Positions 1,898 to 41,912 of a stretch of 45,060 bases of DNA are shown one piece after another. Under the pieces are notes generated by a model that worked only from the letters and a program-made list of their open reading frames with translations, ran no database searches and was not told where the DNA came from. A program made the translations under genes and the position numbers. The stretch comes from Nitrospirota bacterium (GTDB taxonomy: Bacteria > Nitrospirota > Nitrospiria > Nitrospirales > Nitrospiraceae): contig JACQEY010000095.1 of assembly GCA_016200355.1 (NCBI GenBank), forward strand, positions 1 through 45,060, given 5' to 3'. The first letter of the stretch is position 1. Every line of letters starts with the position of its first letter.

Positions 1898-2007
1898 ACA
1901 CCCCCTCCTCCTTCGGCAGAAGAAACGATGAATACCCTATTCTCATATAATTGATAGATAGGAACTATATTCTTCTCGCATCAAAAACACAAACGCACAG
2001 GGGAGGA

Positions 2008-2103
2008 GGGATGGAACCTGATGATCTTCTGTGCTCGTGCAACGCGCGGTCTCGGAAGACCCTCGTTGGACACGCGCAGTAGAAGATCAATCAGCTCCCA
2101 TCC
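2008..2103. repeat. GCGCGC-core hairpin element, copy 1
   Basis: Inverted arms at about 2008-2030 and 2078-2103 pair around GGGATGG and GATCTTCT blocks, with small bulges. The core between them (2031-2077) reads GTGCTCGTGCAACGCGCGG, then the short hairpin GGTCT-CGG-AAGACC, then CTCGTTGGACACGCGCAGT. Core words recur at 14.5, 22.0, 22.5, 26.5 and 37.3 kb, but the arm sequence does not. Confidence 0.7.
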
Positions 2104-2149
2104 CTGAAGAGGGAACGAGCGAGCTTGGAAGGATCATATAGATGAACGG

Positions 2150-7546: not shown

Positions 7547-7659
7547 CGAGCAGGACTGGTTTCTCTTGTTTATTTGGTTTGTTTTGTTCATCTGGTTAGT
7601 CTTAGTTCAACCAAACAAACCAAATAGACCAAATAAACCAGATCAACCAGTCCTGCTCG
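7547..7659. repeat. TTTGGTTTG-word hairpin
   Basis: Long imperfect inverted repeat. The outer arms CGAGCAGGACTGGTT (7547-7561) and AACCAGTCCTGCTCG (7645-7659) pair perfectly over 15 bp. The inner arms are built of GTTTATTTGGTTTGTTTTG on the left and CAAACAAACCAAATAGACC on the right. It sits between the divergent recG and metallopeptidase genes and covers the upstream ATG of recG. A relative lies at 10863-10962. Confidence 0.75.
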
Positions 7660-7735: not shown

Positions 7736-9094
7736 ATGTACCGTCGCAACATTTTTCATATTTTGTATCCTGTCGCCTGCCTCATCGGGCTGTTCGTTGT
7801 CTATCAAGCCTGGTTCAAACCGACCTATCTCCCTACATCACCACCCGACCAGCCCCATGCCGTCGTGGAAGACTCACAGGATACGCCCCCGACACCGCAC
7901 CACGATGGCCCTCCGGAACTGGAGCCTAAACAAACTCGCCTGATCGATCCCAGTGTGGTTCCAAAGACGATGCATTATGAGCTATTGGAGACGATCCGCG
8001 ACGAGATCGAAAAAGGACACGTCAAAACTGCGGAAACAAAACTGTCCGACCTACCGGTAACCATCGTAGACGACAACCACACACGCCCCTATCTATCCAT
8101 CCTCTGGAACAATCTGGGGATTCAACAGGAAAAACACGGCGGGACCGCTGTCTCGATCAAAGCCTTCAAGAAAGCTGCATCACTTGATGCGAAGAATCCC
8201 ATCGTCCAACTGAACCTCGCCCATGCCTACTGGGAACTGCGCGATCCGGCCATGACACAGGACTTTCTGGAACAGCTGGTCGCCCTGGCTCCGAACGAGC
8301 CCTTCCCTCATCTAGCCCTGGCCGATCTCTTTCAGGACCGTGATCAGCTCGGCGAAGCGGTTCGCCATCTCGATCAAGCCACCGCCCTCGCAGGCAAAGA
8401 TCCGGCAGTGCAATCCTATCTGCGAACCGTCACGGCCAAAGTTCGCGGAACAGAGAAAAGTGACGCGCGACTGACCAGCCGAAACAGCGCGCACTTTACC
8501 GTGAAATTCGACGGGGAAGCCGATCAGGCGACCTGGGCCGTTGTGTTGGAGATTCTCGAAGAAGCCTATCGAGAGATCGGCCAAAAGTTCGGACACTTTC
8601 CGTCGAAGACCATCGTCGTCGTTCTGCACTCCAAGTCCACGTTTCAAAGCGCGACCGGCAGTCCGGTGTGGGCCGATGGGCTCTTCGATCCCGTGCTCGG
8701 GCGCATCCAGGTTCCTACGCAGGACGCCTTGGCGGACCGTGCCTGGCTCACACGCGTGCTGCGACATGAGTTTGTGCACGCCCTCCTGCACGACCAACTC
8801 GGCCCTGCCGGCAGCGCTATCCCAACCTGGCTGAATGAAGGCTTGGCCATGGAGTTGTCCGGTGATCGCTGGTCGGATCTCGATCAGATTATGAAGCAGG
8901 AGTTTACACTGATCCCTCTACCGGCCTTGGAAGGGGAATGGGGAGGACTGTCCAGCGATGCTGCAATCGTGGCCACGCACCTCAAGGCGAGGCAAGCACT
9001 CTCTGCCGCCATGCAATCACAACTCTCAATGTCGTACGAACAGTTCCAATCCAGATGGGTGGATCAGCTTCAGGAGCACGGAAGGAAAAGCTAG
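7736..9094 (+). CDS. Membrane-anchored TPR protein with gluzincin-type metallopeptidase domain
   Basis: 452 aa. A hydrophobic N-terminal segment (residues 9-27, HILYPVACLIGLFVVYQAWF) is a signal anchor. A proline-rich linker and TPR repeats (about 115-235; NNLGIQQEKHGGTAVSIKAF, VQLNLAHAYWELRD) follow. The C-terminal domain has HEFVH at residues 344-348 and WLNEGLAMELSG about 20 residues later, i.e. the HExxH plus downstream Glu of 'peptidase MA'-like gluzincins. It is therefore probably a zinc peptidase facing the periplasm; substrates are unknown. The start at 7736 is the Met giving the complete anchor. The stop is immediately followed by a CTGAAAAAG repeat. Confidence 0.8.
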   Translation: MYRRNIFHILYPVACLIGLFVVYQAWFKPTYLPTSPPDQPHAVVEDSQDTPPTPHHDGPPELEPKQTRLIDPSVVPKTMHYELLETIRDEIEKGHVKTAETKLSDLPVTIVDDNHTRPYLSILWNNLGIQQEKHGGTAVSIKAFKKAASLDAKNPIVQLNLAHAYWELRDPAMTQDFLEQLVALAPNEPFPHLALADLFQDRDQLGEAVRHLDQATALAGKDPAVQSYLRTVTAKVRGTEKSDARLTSRNSAHFTVKFDGEADQATWAVVLEILEEAYREIGQKFGHFPSKTIVVVLHSKSTFQSATGSPVWADGLFDPVLGRIQVPTQDALADRAWLTRVLRHEFVHALLHDQLGPAGSAIPTWLNEGLAMELSGDRWSDLDQIMKQEFTLIPLPALEGEWGGLSSDAAIVATHLKARQALSAAMQSQLSMSYEQFQSRWVDQLQEHGRKS

Positions 9095-9217
9095 CAAGAT
9101 GCTGAAAAAGTCCGCCAGCAGCGTTCTCGCATCGTTCAGATCCTCAACGTACCCCAGAGGGTACGCCTCGGCCCTTCACTCGCTGCGGCCTTGCTGGACG
9201 GGCTTTTTGAGCATCCT
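9093..9217. repeat. CTGAAAAAG repeat, two-armed copy
   Basis: Left arm from AGCAAGATGCTGAAAAAGTC (9093 onward, just after the peptidase stop codon TAG) pairs with the right arm CGGGCTTTTTGAGCATCCTG ending 9217. The core contains GTACC-CCAGA-GGGTAC (about 9149-9164). The same architecture, with the core reversed, occurs at 15359-15532. Single arms occur at 10977, 21898 and 29277. Confidence 0.75.
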
Positions 9218-9339
9218 GCGGGATCATGTTTGTTGTTCCAGACATGCGAAGCATTGGATTTCACGCAGGCATCGCTTTTCAGCATCCTGGTAACTTGCAG
9301 TGATCTTGCTGCTGGTAGGTTGAACCTTCTTTCTTCTAT

Positions 9340-10868: not shown

Positions 10869-10962
10869 TTGATCTGGTTTTGTTTGGTTTATTTGGTTCA
10901 CCTGGCAAGCTTCATTCAACCCAAAAACCAAACAAACGAGACAAACCAAATAAACCAAATAA
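10863..10962. repeat. TTTGGTTTG-word hairpin, second copy
   Basis: Left arm ACTGGTTGATCTGGTTTTG and TTTGGTTTATTTGGTT; right arm ACCAAACAAACGAGAC and AAACCAAATAAACCAAAT. The words are those of 7547-7659, without the CGAGCAGG outer arms. It lies at the truncated 5' end of the DCC pseudogene. Confidence 0.7.
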
Positions 10963-14525: not shown

Positions 14526-14618
14526 GCTGGGAGGCAGGGTCTCTCCGAATGCGCGCATCGATCGAGCACATTCTGATCGTGCGCGGTCTGCGAGCAGGGA
14601 GAGGCCCCGCCTCCCAGC
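14526..14618. repeat. GCGCGC-core hairpin element, copy 2
   Basis: Arms 14526-14545 (GCTGGGAGGCAGGGTCTCTC) and 14599-14618 (GAGAGGCCCCGCCTCCCAGC) pair at 18 of 20 positions, and one of the two exceptions is G-T. The core carries GCGCGCATCGATCGAGCACA and GTGCGCGGTCTGCGAGCA. It lies just downstream of the thioredoxin-like gene. Confidence 0.8.
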
Positions 14619-15155: not shown

Positions 15156-15528
15156 CGCAGCCTCCATTTCTCCGGAAGTGCTGAGTGCTGAGTCTTGAGC
15201 AAGGAAACAATCAATCCGATCTCAGCACTCATAACTTAGCACTCAGCACTTCCTGGCACGCTATCCTACCACGCAGATTTTTTCAGGGGCAATGGCGCAG
15301 AGCCCCACAGAGCAGCCACAGTGCCCGAGTGAGTCGCACTTAGATGGCAAGGACGGAAGCAGGCTGCTCAAAACGTCCGCCAACAAGGCCGCAGCCGAAG
15401 AAAACACCGGAAGCGTACCCTCTGGGGTACGTTGAGGATTTTTCTGAGGTGAGAACGACGCCTGGGAAATGCGCGTCTTGGCGCGCAGGGGTTGGGCGGG
15501 TGAGAAGGGCGACTTTTTCAGCAGCCTG
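15156..15528. other. Gene-free stretch with two repeat types
   Basis: No credible gene; a long open frame on the plus strand (from 15469) is antisense to purF. The stretch holds the GTGCTGA word hairpin (15174-15253) and a two-armed CTGAAAAAG element (15359-15532). The promoter of the thioredoxin-like cluster is probably near 15260-15350. Confidence 0.6.
15174..15253. repeat. GTGCTGA-word hairpin
   Basis: Perfect 16-bp arms GGAAGTGCTGAGTGCT (15174-15189) and AGCACTCAGCACTTCC (15238-15253). Within the loop CTCAGCACTC occurs again (15221-15230). Related words occur at 21555-21650 and 25435-25464. Confidence 0.75.
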
Positions 15529-15532
15529 CTAG
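15359..15532. repeat. CTGAAAAAG repeat, two-armed copy abutting purF stop
   Basis: Left arm GCAGGCTGCTCAAAACGTCC (15359 onward) and right arm GACTTTTTCAGCAGCCTGCT (15511-15530) pair. The core holds CGTACCCTCTGGGGTACG (15414-15431), the inverse of the core at 9147. On the minus strand the purF stop TAG is followed directly by CAGGCTGCTGAAAAAG, the same junction as at 9092. Confidence 0.75.
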
Positions 15533-21554: not shown

Positions 21555-21650
21555 GGGAAAAGTGCTGAGTACTGAGAAATGAGTGCTGAGAGTTGGAGCA
21601 GGAAAAATGCTCTTAGTCCGGTCTCAGCACTCGCTACTCAGCTCTAACCC
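21555..21650. repeat. GTGCTGA-word inverted repeat between purS and purQ
   Basis: AAGTGCTGAGTACTGAGAAA and GAGTGCTGAGAG on the left, GTCTCAGCACTCGCTACTCA and GCTCT on the right. The purS stop codon (21644) sits at its right end. Same word family as 15174-15253 and 25435-25464, different exact sequence. Confidence 0.6.
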
Positions 21651-21883
21651 AGTTCGTACCGATATTCCTCAACAATCGTATTCGCCAACAATTTTTCGCA
21701 CATGGCCTTCACCGCAGCATCCGCTTTAGCCTTGTCCGTTTCATTCACATCCACTTCCATGTACTTTCCGACTCGCACATTGCCCGCATTCTTAAACCCC
21801 AGCGAATCGAGCGCATGCTCAATCGCCTTCCCCTGAGGATCGAGAATCCCCTGTTTCAACGTCACATGAATTTTTGCCTTCAC
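21644..21883 (-). CDS. purS: Phosphoribosylformylglycinamidine synthase subunit PurS
   Basis: 79 aa, the normal PurS length. PurS bridges PurL and PurQ in the FGAM synthase complex. The sequence is typical: KIHVTLKQGILDPQGKAIEH, ALDSLGFKNAGNVRVGKYME, then CEKLLANTIVEEYRYEL at the end. Upstream (AAGGAGGGGGCGGTGAAGG on the minus strand) is a strong ribosome site. The first gene of the purS-purQ-(cassette)-purL-purF part of the series. Confidence 0.93.
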   Translation of the reverse strand: MKAKIHVTLKQGILDPQGKAIEHALDSLGFKNAGNVRVGKYMEVDVNETDKAKADAAVKAMCEKLLANTIVEEYRYELG

Positions 21884-21897
21884 CGCCCCCTCCTTAC

Positions 21898-21920
21898 CAG
21901 GATGCTGAAAAAGTCTGTCG
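21898..21920. repeat. CTGAAAAAG repeat, single arm
   Basis: CAGGATGCTGAAAAAGTCTG then TCGG, just upstream of purS. Matches the arms at 9093 and 15530; no partner arm found before the neighbouring GCGCGC-core element. Confidence 0.65.
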
Positions 21921-21941
21921 GCTATCCTCCTACCCCTCAGC

Positions 21942-22182
21942 GTAGGGCGGCATGGATGCTCTCACGTGCGCGCATCGAGTGACCGTCTCCATCTAATTAA
22001 TCCTTCCAAGCTCGCTTGCTTTTCTTATCTTGGAAGGGCACCCATGTTGGTCTAAGTGCGTCCGTCGAACGAGGCCCTTCTTAGGGCGCGCGTTCCGGGA
22101 GCACAGGACCAACATGGGTGCCCTTCCAATCTTTTTCATCGTGCGCGTTCTGCGAGCACAGAGAGCGTTCATGCCGCCCTAC
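21942..22182. repeat. GCGCGC-core hairpin element, copy 3 (outer, interrupted)
   Basis: Arms 21942-21963 and 22161-22182 pair over 22 positions; the two exceptions are G-T. Next to the arms are the two core ends: ACGTGCGCGCATCGAGTGAC on the left and GTGCGCGTTCTGCGAGCACA on the right. The middle of this core is interrupted by a complete second element (22030-22129) with different arms. Confidence 0.82.
22030..22129. repeat. GCGCGC-core hairpin element, copy 4 (inner, nested)
   Basis: Perfect 23-bp arms at 22030-22052 (begins TTGGAAGGGCACCC) and 22107-22129. Core 22053-22106 contains GTGCGTCCGTCGAACGAGGC and GGGCGCGCGTTCCGGGAGCA. Inserted within copy 3. The arms share no sequence with those of copy 3. 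Confidence 0.85.
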
Positions 22183-22187
22183 ATTCT

Positions 22188-22412
22188 TCACTCTTGACTC
22201 CCCTGATCAGGCGATTTGGGCTGTCTATCTATGTATCTCCTGATCCATAAAATCCCCGCGATCGTCCCGAGCCCAGCCAAGGCAAGCGCCACCATCGGCC
22301 AACGCCAGCGTGAACCATCCAAGCGATAAGCCAACACAGCCACCAACGCCGTGGACACAAAAATCGACGCCACCAACCCATAATTCATGAACCACTGCCG
22401 AAACGCCCTCAC
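22188..22412 (-). CDS. Small two-helix membrane protein
   Basis: 74 aa. Two membrane helices: YGLVASIFVSTALVAVLAYR and WPMVALALAGLGTIAGILWI, joined by a short charged loop (LDGSRWRW), then a polar tail. Size and layout resemble AtpZ/AtpI-like proteins, but no diagnostic residue is visible, so this is only a possibility. It lies between purC and purS on the same strand, separated from each by repeat elements. Confidence 0.6.
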   Translation of the reverse strand: MRAFRQWFMNYGLVASIFVSTALVAVLAYRLDGSRWRWPMVALALAGLGTIAGILWIRRYIDRQPKSPDQGSQE

Positions 22413-22473
22413 TTTTTTCTTCCTTCTTCCTTTTCCCCCTTCCCACTAAAGGAAGGATTTGGGGGATTCCAAT

Positions 22474-22571
22474 GAGGGGATGGTGGGGTTGTCCTCGACT
22501 GCGCGCGTTCAACGAGGGCCTTCTGAGGCCGCGCGTTGCGCGAGCAAAGAGGACGGCCCCACCGTCCCCTC
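22474..22571. repeat. GCGCGC-core hairpin element, copy 5
   Basis: Arms 22474-22495 and 22550-22571 pair over about 22 positions with three G-T pairs and no other mismatch in the inner 20. The core is the cleanest seen: GCGCGCGTTCAACGAGGGCC, TTCTGA, GGCCGCGCGTTGCGCGAGCA. It lies just downstream of purC (minus strand). Confidence 0.82.
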
Positions 22572-22587
22572 TGTCCTCTCTGTCCCC

Positions 22588-23292
22588 TCATCCACAGACT
22601 CTCTTCAATACCTCCCGATACGCCTCTTCAATCTTTCCCAAATCCTTCCGAAATCGATCCTTATCCATCGACTCCTTCGTCGTCTGGTCCCAGAAGCGGC
22701 AGGTGTCCGGCGAAATCTCATCGGCCAGGATCACCTTGCCGTTGTGCATTCCGAATTCCAGTTTGAAATCCACAAGAATCATCTGCCGGTCGCGGAAGAA
22801 CGGCTGGAGTACGCTGTTCACTTTCAACGCGAGCCTTTTGATCTCTGTCATTTGCTCCGGTGTCGCCAGCTTCATCAACCGAATATGCTCATCGGCAATC
22901 AAGGGATCACCCAACGCGTCGTTCTTGTAATACCACTCCACGATAGCCGGCTCGATCGGATCGCCCTCTTTCAGCCCCAGCCGCTTGGCCAAACTGCCTG
23001 CCACGACATTGCGGACCACGACTTCGACCGGCACGATCTCCACCTTCTTCGTGAGCAGTTCCCGGTCGCTCAATCGTTCGACAAAATGTGTCGGCACACC
23101 GGCCTGCTCCAGCAACCGAAAGAGCCGCTCAGACACTTTATTATTAATGACGCCTTTCTCGACGATGGTCCCGCGCTTCTGCGCATTGAACGCCGTCGCA
23201 TCGTCCTTAAAGTACTGGACAACCTGATCCAGCTTATCGGTCGCAAAGACCTTCTTGGCCTTACCTTCGTAGAGTAGTGTGCCTATTGTCAT
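22588..23292 (-). CDS. purC: Phosphoribosylaminoimidazole-succinocarboxamide synthase PurC
   Basis: 234 aa, the compact bacterial SAICAR synthetase length. It joins aspartate to CAIR using ATP. Landmarks are LLYEGKAKKVFATDKLD, YFKDDATAFNAQKRG, GVINNKVSERLFRLLEQAG, VEVVVRNVVAGSLAKRLG and LVDFKLEFGMHNGKVILADE, then ISPDTCRFWD. Starts 18 bp after the cld stop, so purB, cld and purC form one transcript. Confidence 0.95.
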   Translation of the reverse strand: MTIGTLLYEGKAKKVFATDKLDQVVQYFKDDATAFNAQKRGTIVEKGVINNKVSERLFRLLEQAGVPTHFVERLSDRELLTKKVEIVPVEVVVRNVVAGSLAKRLGLKEGDPIEPAIVEWYYKNDALGDPLIADEHIRLMKLATPEQMTEIKRLALKVNSVLQPFFRDRQMILVDFKLEFGMHNGKVILADEISPDTCRFWDQTTKESMDKDRFRKDLGKIEEAYREVLKRVCG

Positions 23293-26518: not shown

Positions 26519-26615
26519 GGGGGACGGCCAGCTTGCTTTCAATTGCGCGCGTCGAGCGACCACCGTTTCATCGTGGGGGCTCCGCGAGCAAAGAAAGGCG
26601 GGCTGGCCGTCCCCC
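26519..26615. repeat. GCGCGC-core hairpin element, copy 6
   Basis: Arms 26519-26540 (begins GGGGGACGGCCAGC) and 26593-26615 pair over about 22 positions with one bulge and mostly G-T exceptions. Core: TTGCGCGCGTCGAGCGACCA on the left, GGGGGCTCCGCGAGCAAAG on the right. Located between ribBA and ribH on the minus strand, adjacent to the ribBA stop. Confidence 0.8.
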
Positions 26616-37258: not shown

Positions 37259-37576
37259 GGGAGGGTGGCCTGTTGATCTCCTGTGCTCGCGCAACGCGCG
37301 GCCTCAGAGGATGGGAAGGGAGCGGCCAGGTGCCCTTCTTGCTCGCAGAACGCGCACGGTGAAACTGTGCTCGTTCGATGCGCGCAGTAAAGGGCAGCCT
37401 TGGCCACTCCCTAAATAGCGGTGTAGCGAATTTGAAGGCCCTCGCCAGGGCTACTGGCACGTCCCGGGAAATCGATTGCAAAGCAATCGGAGGGTAGGGC
37501 GGGTGAAAAATATCTGCCAGTGGGTGGGCGGGTGAGAAAGACGCGCGCAGTGGGAGATCAAGCAGGACACCCTCCC
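37259..37576. repeat. GCGCGC-core hairpin element, copy 7 (outer, interrupted)
   Basis: Arms 37259-37281 (begins GGGAGGGTGGCCTG) and 37552-37576 pair over 23 positions with one bulge and one mismatch. Core ends: TGTGCTCGCGCAACGCGCGG next to the left arm and GACGCGCGCAGT next to the right arm. Between them lie a second element (37317-37412) and about 130 bp of other sequence including GAAGGCCCTCGCCAGGGC. Confidence 0.78.
37317..37412. repeat. GCGCGC-core hairpin element, copy 8 (inner, nested)
   Basis: Arms 37317-37337 (AGGGAGCGGCCAGGTGCCC...) and 37390-37412 pair apart from two bulged bases and a G-T-type difference. Core: TTGCTCGCAGAACGCGCACG on the left, TGTGCTCGTTCGATGCGCGC on the right, i.e. 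the core runs opposite to copies 2-6. Confidence 0.78.
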
Positions 37577-39155: not shown

Positions 39156-41912
39156 TTATGATGGTACTCCTGTCGATACGCCTTCCGACGCATCGACAGG
39201 CTGGCCCATGAACACATCGATCTCGTGTTTGATGGTCGAGCAGATGGCTTCCAGTCGAGCGTGGTCCTCGATCTTGCCTCCATCCCGATCCGTCACATAG
39301 AACACGTCGACGACCTGATGCCTGCCGACGGTGCGCAAGGACTGCTGTATGTCATCGTCCAGCCTGGTCGAAATCCTGGCCGCATGGACCGACAGGCCGA
39401 GCTGAAAGATCGCGCGAGTGATGATATACAGCAGTCCTTGCGTATCGTCGGCAAACACATCGATCACCGTGAGCTTGTCGCAGATCCCATTATCGATTTC
39501 TACCTCGGTCGCTTGGCGGGTGGCCGGCAGGTGGCGAACGGCGGACAGGCGGGTATTTCGACGCATCAACTGATCGAGCGCCTCTTCGCCCTTCAGCACC
39601 CGGATGATCCTCTCGGCTACGGAAGCACGGCGGTCCTCCGGAGGAACGCCGACATAATCCGGATCGGATGCCTGGAAGGTGTTCACGACGATCCCATCAT
39701 CTCTGGTGATGATCTGGGCATCCAGAATATCAAGCCCCTCGGCCGCCATGGCACCGGCCATTTTTGAAAAGATGCCTGGTGTGAGGTTGTCGTGGGTAAT
39801 CACCGTGTACTCGGACATGCCCAGTTCCTCGTTGAAGGTCTCCTCGACCAGCACCTCCCCTGCCTTCAGCCTTCTGATCGCCCCCAGATGGGCGGCAATC
39901 CGCTTCGGAGACGTCCCATGCAGATAGCGCAGAGGAAACTGGCTCAGTTGCAATTCAATCCAGTCGAACTCCCCAGCCGCTGTGTTCGTGAACTCACGCG
40001 CCACCTCGCTGATCAATTCCTTGAGGCATTCAGGGCCGACCGTTGTGTCCTGCTCGCCTGACACAGCCGGCAACGTACGCCTATAGAGCTGGACGAGCAA
40101 CGACTCTTTCCACTTAGTCAGGACGCCGGGCCCCACCGCCGCAATGTCGGCAGCAGTCAGGACCAACAACATGCGTAGAACCTCTGGCGTCTCTACCTCC
40201 TTGGCAAAGGGCAAGAGGACCTTTTGGTCATAGGGGTCGCGCCGGAAGGCCGTGTGAGCCATCAGGAGATGCTTATGCACGAGAAAGACCAGCGTCCTCG
40301 TCTCTTGCTCGTCGCAGCCCAACCGCTCTGCCGTCTCCTCTGCGATCGCCTTGCCCGCTTCACAGTGATCCTCTTTCCGTCCCTTCCCCAGATCGTGCAA
40401 CAGGATCGCCAGATGCAAGAGATCCTTCCTCCTGATTTCCTGATAGACCTCTCCGATAGCCCCGGACTCCAGGGCGAGCGCTTCGGCCTTGGCCACAGCC
40501 AACAGGGTATGTTCATCCACCGTGTACTTGTGATACTGGTTGAACTGCATCAGCCCGCGGAGCGTGGCAAAGACCGGGATGAGCTTCTCCAGCAGATGGG
40601 CGCCATGCATCGCTTTCAGTGTGCCGGCCACGGCGTCCGGCCCAGCGAGGATCTTCAGAAAGACCCGACTGACCTCAGGGGTCCTGAACGCCTCATTCGA
40701 GGCGCTATCCATGTGGCTATGAATTTCGTCCAGCAGGCCGGTGTCGATCTTGAGGCGCCGGGATCTCGCCATGTCGAACAGCCGGAGAAGCAAGTCAGGG
40801 CTATCCAGAACCCGAGCCCGCAGTTCAGAGGGAACGGTCAGATGCCGGCTGGTTACCACGAAATAGCCGTCCACCATGGCAACCGGCAGGGCACGCGCCG
40901 ATCGGCTCTTCGCCGGCACGGCCTGGCAACGGTCCACAAATCGGAGCATGGTCTCATGGAGTCCGACCGTATGCCGGTAATACTGCTGCATGAACTGCTC
41001 CACCCCCAGGAGATGGGGGCGATCTCGGAATCCAAACAGGGATGCCAGCCGAACTTGTTCGTCGAACGACAGAATTTCCTGCGCCATCCCGGCCTCAACA
41101 TGCAGAAATGCCCGAACACGCCACAAAAAATCCCTGGCCTCCGTCAGAGCGAGACAATCCTGCCTAGAGAGGAGGCCTCGATCCGTCAAGTCCTGTAGTG
41201 TAGAAGACTGGAACCGGGCCATCCCAACCCACCGGAGCAGATGGAAGTCCCGCAGCCCTCCTTTGCTTTTCTTGACATTGGGCTCCAGGAGGTAGATCGT
41301 CTGTCCAAACTTTACATATTCACGGCGCCGCTCTTCCATCTTCTGTTCGATAAACCGCCCTGCTCCACGGCCAACCACTTCCTTGAAATATCGGCGATAA
41401 AATTTCTGGAACAGGCTTGGGCTTCCGGCCAAAAACCGTGATGTCATCATCGAGGTGCGAATCGTCAGATCCTGCCCCGCCAGCTCGATGCAATCGTCAA
41501 TCGTCCGCATGCTGTGGCCAACATGGAATCCGAGATCCCAGAGATGGTGCAGCACTTCACGGAACAACACCGGCGCCGCCTCCCCCGCCTCCTCGCTATA
41601 GAGGAACATGACGTCGATGTCTGAGTAGGGCGCCAACTCACGTTGGCCATAGCCTCCCAGCGCGACTAGGCAGCAATGTTGGGCGCCCGCGATCTGCGCT
41701 GCTTCTCCAGCCTGCCGCATGGCGCTTCTGTACCGGTCGATGATCAGAGCATCCACGAACTCCGTCAAGGCCGCCATGACTTCGGCCCCCGTGGCCCCGT
41801 CCAATAGCCGCTGCCGGAGCGCCCGTCTGTGCCCGGCCAGGGCGGAGACCGGATCGGTCTCCGCCCCGCGCAAGAACTCAGCCGACAACCCATTATTCGG
41901 CGTCACCGTCAC
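39156..41912 (-). CDS. glnD: [Protein-PII] uridylyltransferase / uridylyl-removing enzyme GlnD
   Basis: 918 aa, full length. It modifies the T-loop tyrosine of P-II in response to glutamine. Domains: nucleotidyltransferase (CLVALGGYGQRELAPYSDID followed by VMFLY; KKSKGGLRDFHLLRWVG), HD hydrolase (YTVDEHTLLAVAKAEA, LLHLAILLHDLGKGRKEDHC), then two C-terminal ACT domains (YTVITHDNLTPGIFSKMAGA; LTVIDVFADDTQGLLYIITR). The start overlaps the amt stop by 4 bp, tying it to the transporter whose C-terminus carries a P-II T-loop. No separate glnB or glnK gene is in this window. Confidence 0.95.
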   Translation of the reverse strand: MTVTPNNGLSAEFLRGAETDPVSALAGHRRALRQRLLDGATGAEVMAALTEFVDALIIDRYRSAMRQAGEAAQIAGAQHCCLVALGGYGQRELAPYSDIDVMFLYSEEAGEAAPVLFREVLHHLWDLGFHVGHSMRTIDDCIELAGQDLTIRTSMMTSRFLAGSPSLFQKFYRRYFKEVVGRGAGRFIEQKMEERRREYVKFGQTIYLLEPNVKKSKGGLRDFHLLRWVGMARFQSSTLQDLTDRGLLSRQDCLALTEARDFLWRVRAFLHVEAGMAQEILSFDEQVRLASLFGFRDRPHLLGVEQFMQQYYRHTVGLHETMLRFVDRCQAVPAKSRSARALPVAMVDGYFVVTSRHLTVPSELRARVLDSPDLLLRLFDMARSRRLKIDTGLLDEIHSHMDSASNEAFRTPEVSRVFLKILAGPDAVAGTLKAMHGAHLLEKLIPVFATLRGLMQFNQYHKYTVDEHTLLAVAKAEALALESGAIGEVYQEIRRKDLLHLAILLHDLGKGRKEDHCEAGKAIAEETAERLGCDEQETRTLVFLVHKHLLMAHTAFRRDPYDQKVLLPFAKEVETPEVLRMLLVLTAADIAAVGPGVLTKWKESLLVQLYRRTLPAVSGEQDTTVGPECLKELISEVAREFTNTAAGEFDWIELQLSQFPLRYLHGTSPKRIAAHLGAIRRLKAGEVLVEETFNEELGMSEYTVITHDNLTPGIFSKMAGAMAAEGLDILDAQIITRDDGIVVNTFQASDPDYVGVPPEDRRASVAERIIRVLKGEEALDQLMRRNTRLSAVRHLPATRQATEVEIDNGICDKLTVIDVFADDTQGLLYIITRAIFQLGLSVHAARISTRLDDDIQQSLRTVGRHQVVDVFYVTDRDGGKIEDHARLEAICSTIKHEIDVFMGQPVDASEGVSTGVPS

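Follow-up and report, generated by a model that had tools for sequence, protein, structure and literature searches.

ERIC/IRU, NEMIS and other MITE-like hairpin repeats are transcribed within bacterial mRNAs and are believed to influence how stable the RNA is or how it is processed. In integrons, the attC site is a long imperfect hairpin located right past the stop codon and carries strand-specific imperfections. Transcripts terminated by Rho have hairpins at their 3' ends that act as barriers to exonucleases. REP/BIME elements are palindromes tagged by GTAG and CGTC (PMC3733652, PMC12306157), and some REPs sit no more than 15 nt from a stop codon, a position in which they reduce translation in E. 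coli (PMC12306157).

The window analyzed here is a stretch of 45,060 nucleotides (contig JACQEY010000095.1, forward strand) from the assembly GCA_016200355.1 of a Nitrospirota bacterium of the Nitrospiraceae, which comprises 242 contigs and 2.94 Mb. It holds several copies of a repeat that we interpret, with a probability of roughly 0.6, as a dispersed element specific to the Nitrospiraceae, about 95 nt long and forming an mRNA hairpin just past stop codons, often within operons. The hairpin is made of a constant tip, or core, of 47 nt and a stem of about 22 bp, which varies between genes yet stays paired. Read in mRNA sense, one arm comes first, TGCTCGC...GCGCGCA follows and the second arm comes last. 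The right-hand core motif, with up to one mismatch allowed, is present at 87 places in the genome, versus 2 for the reversed control. When the uninterrupted elements were cut out, the core measured exactly 47 nt in 64 of 64 and a common fold was recovered. The ungapped alignment of 36 elements from this genome revealed the invariant core columns T27, G28, G30, C40, G41, A42, G43, C59, G60, G62, T64, G67, G71 and A73. Conserved imperfections were also detected in the core, namely one U.C mismatch, a two-nucleotide bulge on the 3' side and one C.U mismatch (mRNA sense), while its variable pairs covary, with G-C/A-U and G-C/C-G exchanges and several types at one pair. The fold energy of the hairpins lies 6-11 standard deviations under that of shuffled sequences. 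A first-pass annotation, made from the letters alone, had described a constant core flanked by paired arms, and this description holds: the pairing score of an element's own arms is 12.3, compared with 2.4 when arms are swapped.

The most elaborate copy in the window is the nested element at 21942..22182 ((-), the mRNA sense), located between a gene X and purS. Its outer hairpin has a type A core and arms at 21942-21963 and 22161-22182 that are 91% complementary. The outer core is interrupted in its apical loop, giving a 192-bp composite (21967..22158, (+)). The interrupting sequence is a complete hairpin (22030..22129, (-)) with perfect 23-bp arms (22030-22052 and 22107-22129, 100% complementary) around a 47-nt type C core with a GGCCC/GGGC tip (22057..22103, (+)). 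The nested arrangement proposed by the annotation is real. The cistron downstream is purS (21644..21883, (-)). A single hairpin with a type B core at 22500-22546 (22474..22572, (-)) follows the stop codon of the cistron upstream of it, purC, encoding SAICAR synthetase (22588..23292, (-)). In the interval between purC and purS (21884-22587), the gene preceding purS abuts or overlaps it in 8 relatives, leaving next to no intergenic DNA, and in other relatives repeats fill 100-300 bp there.

Single hairpins also occur after the stop of an AhpC/TSA-family gene (14526..14618, (-); type A core at 14550-14596; arms at 14526 and 14598, 90% complementary) and between ribBA and ribH (26519..26615, (-)). 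The latter has a variant core (CCCCC/GGTGG), and its arms at 26519 and 26583 coincide with a listed inverted repeat. The annotation had named further copies at 2008, 14526, 22474, 26519, 37259 and 37317. Cores are present at all of them, but not all are simple copies. The region 37259-37420, after a GlnE-like gene, is a type B hairpin interrupted by a type A hairpin: the type A unit (37318..37411, (+), here the mRNA sense) sits in the apical loop, and 37259..37299 (+) is one half of the interrupted unit. The copy at 2008 is a type B hairpin (2007..2105, (+); core at 2032-2078) within a decayed nest, in which left halves persist near 2168 and 2238 and the right halves are missing.

Other repeats were observed in the same DNA. 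A second repeat family (CGGCTGCTGAAAATGG...TTTTGAGCAGCC and AGGATGCTGAAAAAG...TTTTTGAGCATCCTG) occupies the same post-stop positions in relatives and is found after ribBA in G004, G010, G025 and G026; its ends recur in the window at 9088-9296, 15358-15530 and 21905. Long A/T-rich hairpins of TTGTTTGGTTTATTTGG-type units, with arms of up to 51 nt that are 82% complementary, constitute another repeat type at 7547-7659 and 10880-10962. A 34-nt inverted repeat, 91% complementary and with its halves 63 nt apart, lies at 39323-39453 within the ORF 39156-41912.

The position of the element relative to genes, which were placed with a home-made gene caller based on codon usage, is well defined. The distance from stop codon to core has a median of 32 nt and is mostly 22-33 nt, and named Nitrospira records that form an independent set again give a median of 32 nt. 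Since the arm takes up about 22 nt, the base of the hairpin lies 0-10 nt past the stop codon. Between tandem genes, the core motif is antisense to the genes in 34 of 39 cases (34:5) in this genome, and the preferred orientation was found in 58 of 73 (58:15) in the named set. A larger count of 109:8 includes orthologous copies and hence is not an independent count. A minority of copies have the opposite orientation, lie between divergent genes or are far from a stop codon.

The arms are inherited locus by locus and are altered by compensatory double substitutions within one orthologous locus. The purC locus provides a covariation test in 17 relatives that avoids the mixing of unrelated families; it yielded 38 both-side cells versus 14.9 +/- 2.7 in shuffled data, with slid controls at or below 11. 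Compensated changes, one of them a G-C to C-G replacement, also separate G002 from G025 at the 14622 locus. In the source genome, 36 copies gave 207 both-side cells versus 103 shuffled, and both-side changes were present in all 23 arm pairs. Orthologs share 0.76-0.85 identity in arms and 0.81-0.88 in cores, and for any two copies the values are 0.55 and 0.79, respectively, a large gain for the arms and a slight one for the cores. The annotation had regarded the arms as different at every locus and unrelated to each other, which is not the case. When 62 elements of this genome were clustered at 75% arm identity, families of 15, 12, 6, 4, 4, 3 and 2 members were obtained (46 copies in seven shared families), leaving 16 singletons. 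The arms of paralogous copies are 0.55 identical within this genome, versus 0.39 when shuffled, and their purine/pyrimidine agreement between copies is 0.72 versus 0.50. That annotation also held that its model of locus-specific arms would fail if most copies were unpaired or if the arms formed a small fixed set; neither was found, although the findings come near to it, about three-quarters of the copies belonging to shared families at 75% identity.

The element model matched 32 of 32 genomes of the genus, with counts reaching at least about 128, and 74 of 79 genomes of the family, whose members carry dozens to more than 100 copies per genome. The rest of the phylum sample gave one weak match (E 5e-5). 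This match is in G306, of the same order and another family, and is either due to chance or a diverged copy. In a scan of 84,980 species genomes for the exact core pattern, all of the matches listed (at least 80) carried the names Nitrospira, Nitrospirae, Nitrospirota or Nitrospiraceae. Many members of the genus share one set of arms at the purS site, around simple cores of type A or A'; composites occur in G000 and G031, the most diverged member has a degenerate copy, G001 retains an arms-only remnant and in others the site is wholly empty. The sites behind the 14622 gene and behind ribBA are more variable, and in some relatives they carry very different arms, a different repeat or nothing at all. 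The purC site has the element in most relatives, including some whose PurC is only 77-79% identical. Individual sites are without the element in several genomes that keep the gene order intact, so no single copy is essential.

The stems are imperfect in a regular manner. In mRNA sense, A:C mismatches are concentrated at 8-11 and 16-19 bp from the core, and mispairs in the stems total 298 A:C versus 49 G:U. One-nucleotide bulges of the 3' arm substitute for the mispairs at 9-12 bp from the core. The A:C pattern and the bulges were repeated in the independent set of named Nitrospira records. At the purC locus across species, 15 of 16 sequences are unpaired at columns 16/83, 10 of 16 at 17/82 and 10 of 16 at 8/91. 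Strand-biased mutation was considered for the A:C excess and rejected, as a corresponding bias is missing from the flanks (A/(A+G) 0.44, T/(T+C) 0.52) and the excess is limited to the two stem positions. At these positions both C.A and A.C occur and G:U and U:G are nearly absent, a mixture that a double-stranded DNA site would not explain and that therefore indicates a folded single strand. This strand is most likely the mRNA, which is favored because mispairs exchange with bulges and the elements are placed behind stop codons.

Selection on folding, acting on a family-wide, REP-like post-stop hairpin, is the best explanation for the maintenance of the arms. The annotation had already offered pairing kept by selection as one of two options, and both the covariation and the mispairs at special positions support it. 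The hairpin would be transcribed together with the upstream gene and might stall 3'-to-5' exonucleases or, like REPs close to stop codons, slow the ribosome at termination, and could thereby determine how long the message of that cistron lasts or how much it yields. A role in protecting or tuning the 3' end of that cistron is probable, and position and orientation fit it. The regular imperfections of the stem may prevent its being cut as long perfect double-stranded RNA, and the invariant tip may be a protein-binding site. If only stem pairing and its imperfections matter, the stem would be free to drift and the tip would not. A more ambitious and tentative extension, which we consider less probable than the basic reading, is that the hairpins form a new class of regulatory mRNA element. 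A putative dedicated protein of the Nitrospiraceae would recognize the tip, the drifting stems would keep two obligatory distortions, and tips would be exchanged between loci by recombination, the whole serving, behind many genes, as a genome-wide mark of post-stop control.

The assignment of function to the mRNA strand is less certain, since the same mispairs become G:U wobbles on the antisense strand, which folds more stably (mean -60.2 versus -55.1 kcal/mol; 147 of 175 copies). The functional molecule could thus be an antisense RNA or a single-stranded DNA intermediate of transposition or replication, the special positions being G:U or G:T wobbles there and the conserved core mismatches reading G.A and A.G. 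We consider this doubtful, although it is the strongest of the competing explanations. Away from the two special positions, A:C and G:U are about equally rare and no strand asymmetry is seen; the replacement of mispairs by one-nucleotide bulges suggests that distortion itself is favored; a conserved antisense promoter was not observed; and it is the sense gene's stop codon that fixes where the element lies.

Selection on the folded mRNA also has to be weighed against mechanisms that would pair the arms without it. Template switching can correct imperfect palindromes, and such quasipalindrome correction would fit the arms that are perfect over 23 bp and the co-change of arms within a locus. It is an improbable explanation, because it would erase the mispairs at the special positions, and at the purC locus these mispairs persist from species to species.

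About equally improbable is a mobile core that enters the loops of existing hairpins or copies its flank in inverted orientation on insertion, the latter being the other option of the annotation. It would agree with the nesting of elements in apical loops, with the homology of the 192-bp composite to about 40 other loci, which ends at the core ends, and with 36 pairs of copies in this genome in which arm identity is below 0.5 and the cores are at least 97% identical. However, copying of a flank gained no support: the arms at purS are common to many species, arms are homologous between loci and fall into common families, and wholly empty sites at purS and other loci contain nothing resembling either arm. 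At the site with arms and no core (G001, L146), loss is likelier than a core that has yet to arrive, as the most diverged tested member of the genus has the core. The sharp boundary of homology is explained by replacement of the core inside standing arms.

Cores are at times invaded or replaced while the arms stay, probably by recombination between copies. A loose scan for nested copies found 15, with an outer-arm pairing score of at least 9 in 11 of them and a mean of 13.2 versus 7.9 for swapped arms. The outer stem still folds, since the inner hairpin occupies the apical part of the outer. Free swapping of cores inside standing arms is not claimed here, because the tree shows that at purC core types and arm types change mostly in step (at least 9 and at least 11 changes). 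Independent core change is supported by the purS site, where at least 4 core changes occurred with one arm family, the two composites among them, by the chimeric core of G006, and by G012, in which type II arms surround a type B core.

An ordinary intrinsic terminator or a plain REP/MITE repeat would also be intergenic, palindromic, high in copy number and downstream of genes, but is very improbable: the terminator was rejected for want of a U-tract (1 of 62 hairpins has TTTT in the next 20 nt, and T makes up a fraction of 0.18 past the 3' arm), and a REP with its RAYT was rejected for the missing tag (GTAG/CGTC near the foot in 15 of 175 copies, scored over the outermost 8 nt of 28-nt flanks) and for the missing Y1 transposase in several element-rich genomes. 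No Y1 (RAYT) transposase was detected in the source genome or in the element-bearing, 99% complete G025, G026, G027, G172 and G234; some Y1 protein occurs in 47 of 78 genomes of the family. A known Rfam family was likewise rejected, as the Rfam 15 covariance models gave no match above the gathering cut-off in the window. The top sub-threshold match to the element, a microRNA precursor model with 27.8 bits versus the 90 needed, reflects likeness of shape.

No description of the element was found in the literature on Nitrospira repeats, most subscription papers lying outside the search. If the interpretation is true, a major group of nitrite oxidizers possesses a structured RNA element, present throughout the family, that conserves the pairing of its stem without conserving the sequence. 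Each genome would offer dozens to more than 100 natural test cases for the action of post-stop hairpins, and the fixed mispair positions lead to clear predictions for RNase III, exonucleases or a tip-binding protein.

The evidence points to a previously undescribed structure at message ends, and not to an insertion with a copied flank. Among known systems, the element would act most like a REP beside a stop codon. REP/BIME palindromes are intergenic, occur in many copies, lie for the most part downstream of coding sequences and are probably transcribed (PMC12306157), and the Nitrospiraceae element shares the intergenic location, the high copy number and the place downstream of coding regions. 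It differs in its length of about 95 nt, compared with 20-40 in REPs, in having a constant tip and a variable stem (arm identity 0.55 versus 0.79 for the core) where REPs conserve the stem, and in its fixed mispair positions. ERIC/IRU and NEMIS have fixed terminal inverted repeats, whereas the outer arms here are locus-specific. The exonuclease-barrier hairpins of Rho-terminated transcripts are similarly stable, lie just past the stop codon and have no U-tract, but do not form a sequence family with an invariant tip. The attC site resembles the element as a long imperfect post-stop hairpin with strand-specific imperfections; its base is conserved and its tip variable, while the element of the Nitrospiraceae shows the reverse and resides in ordinary chromosomal operons.
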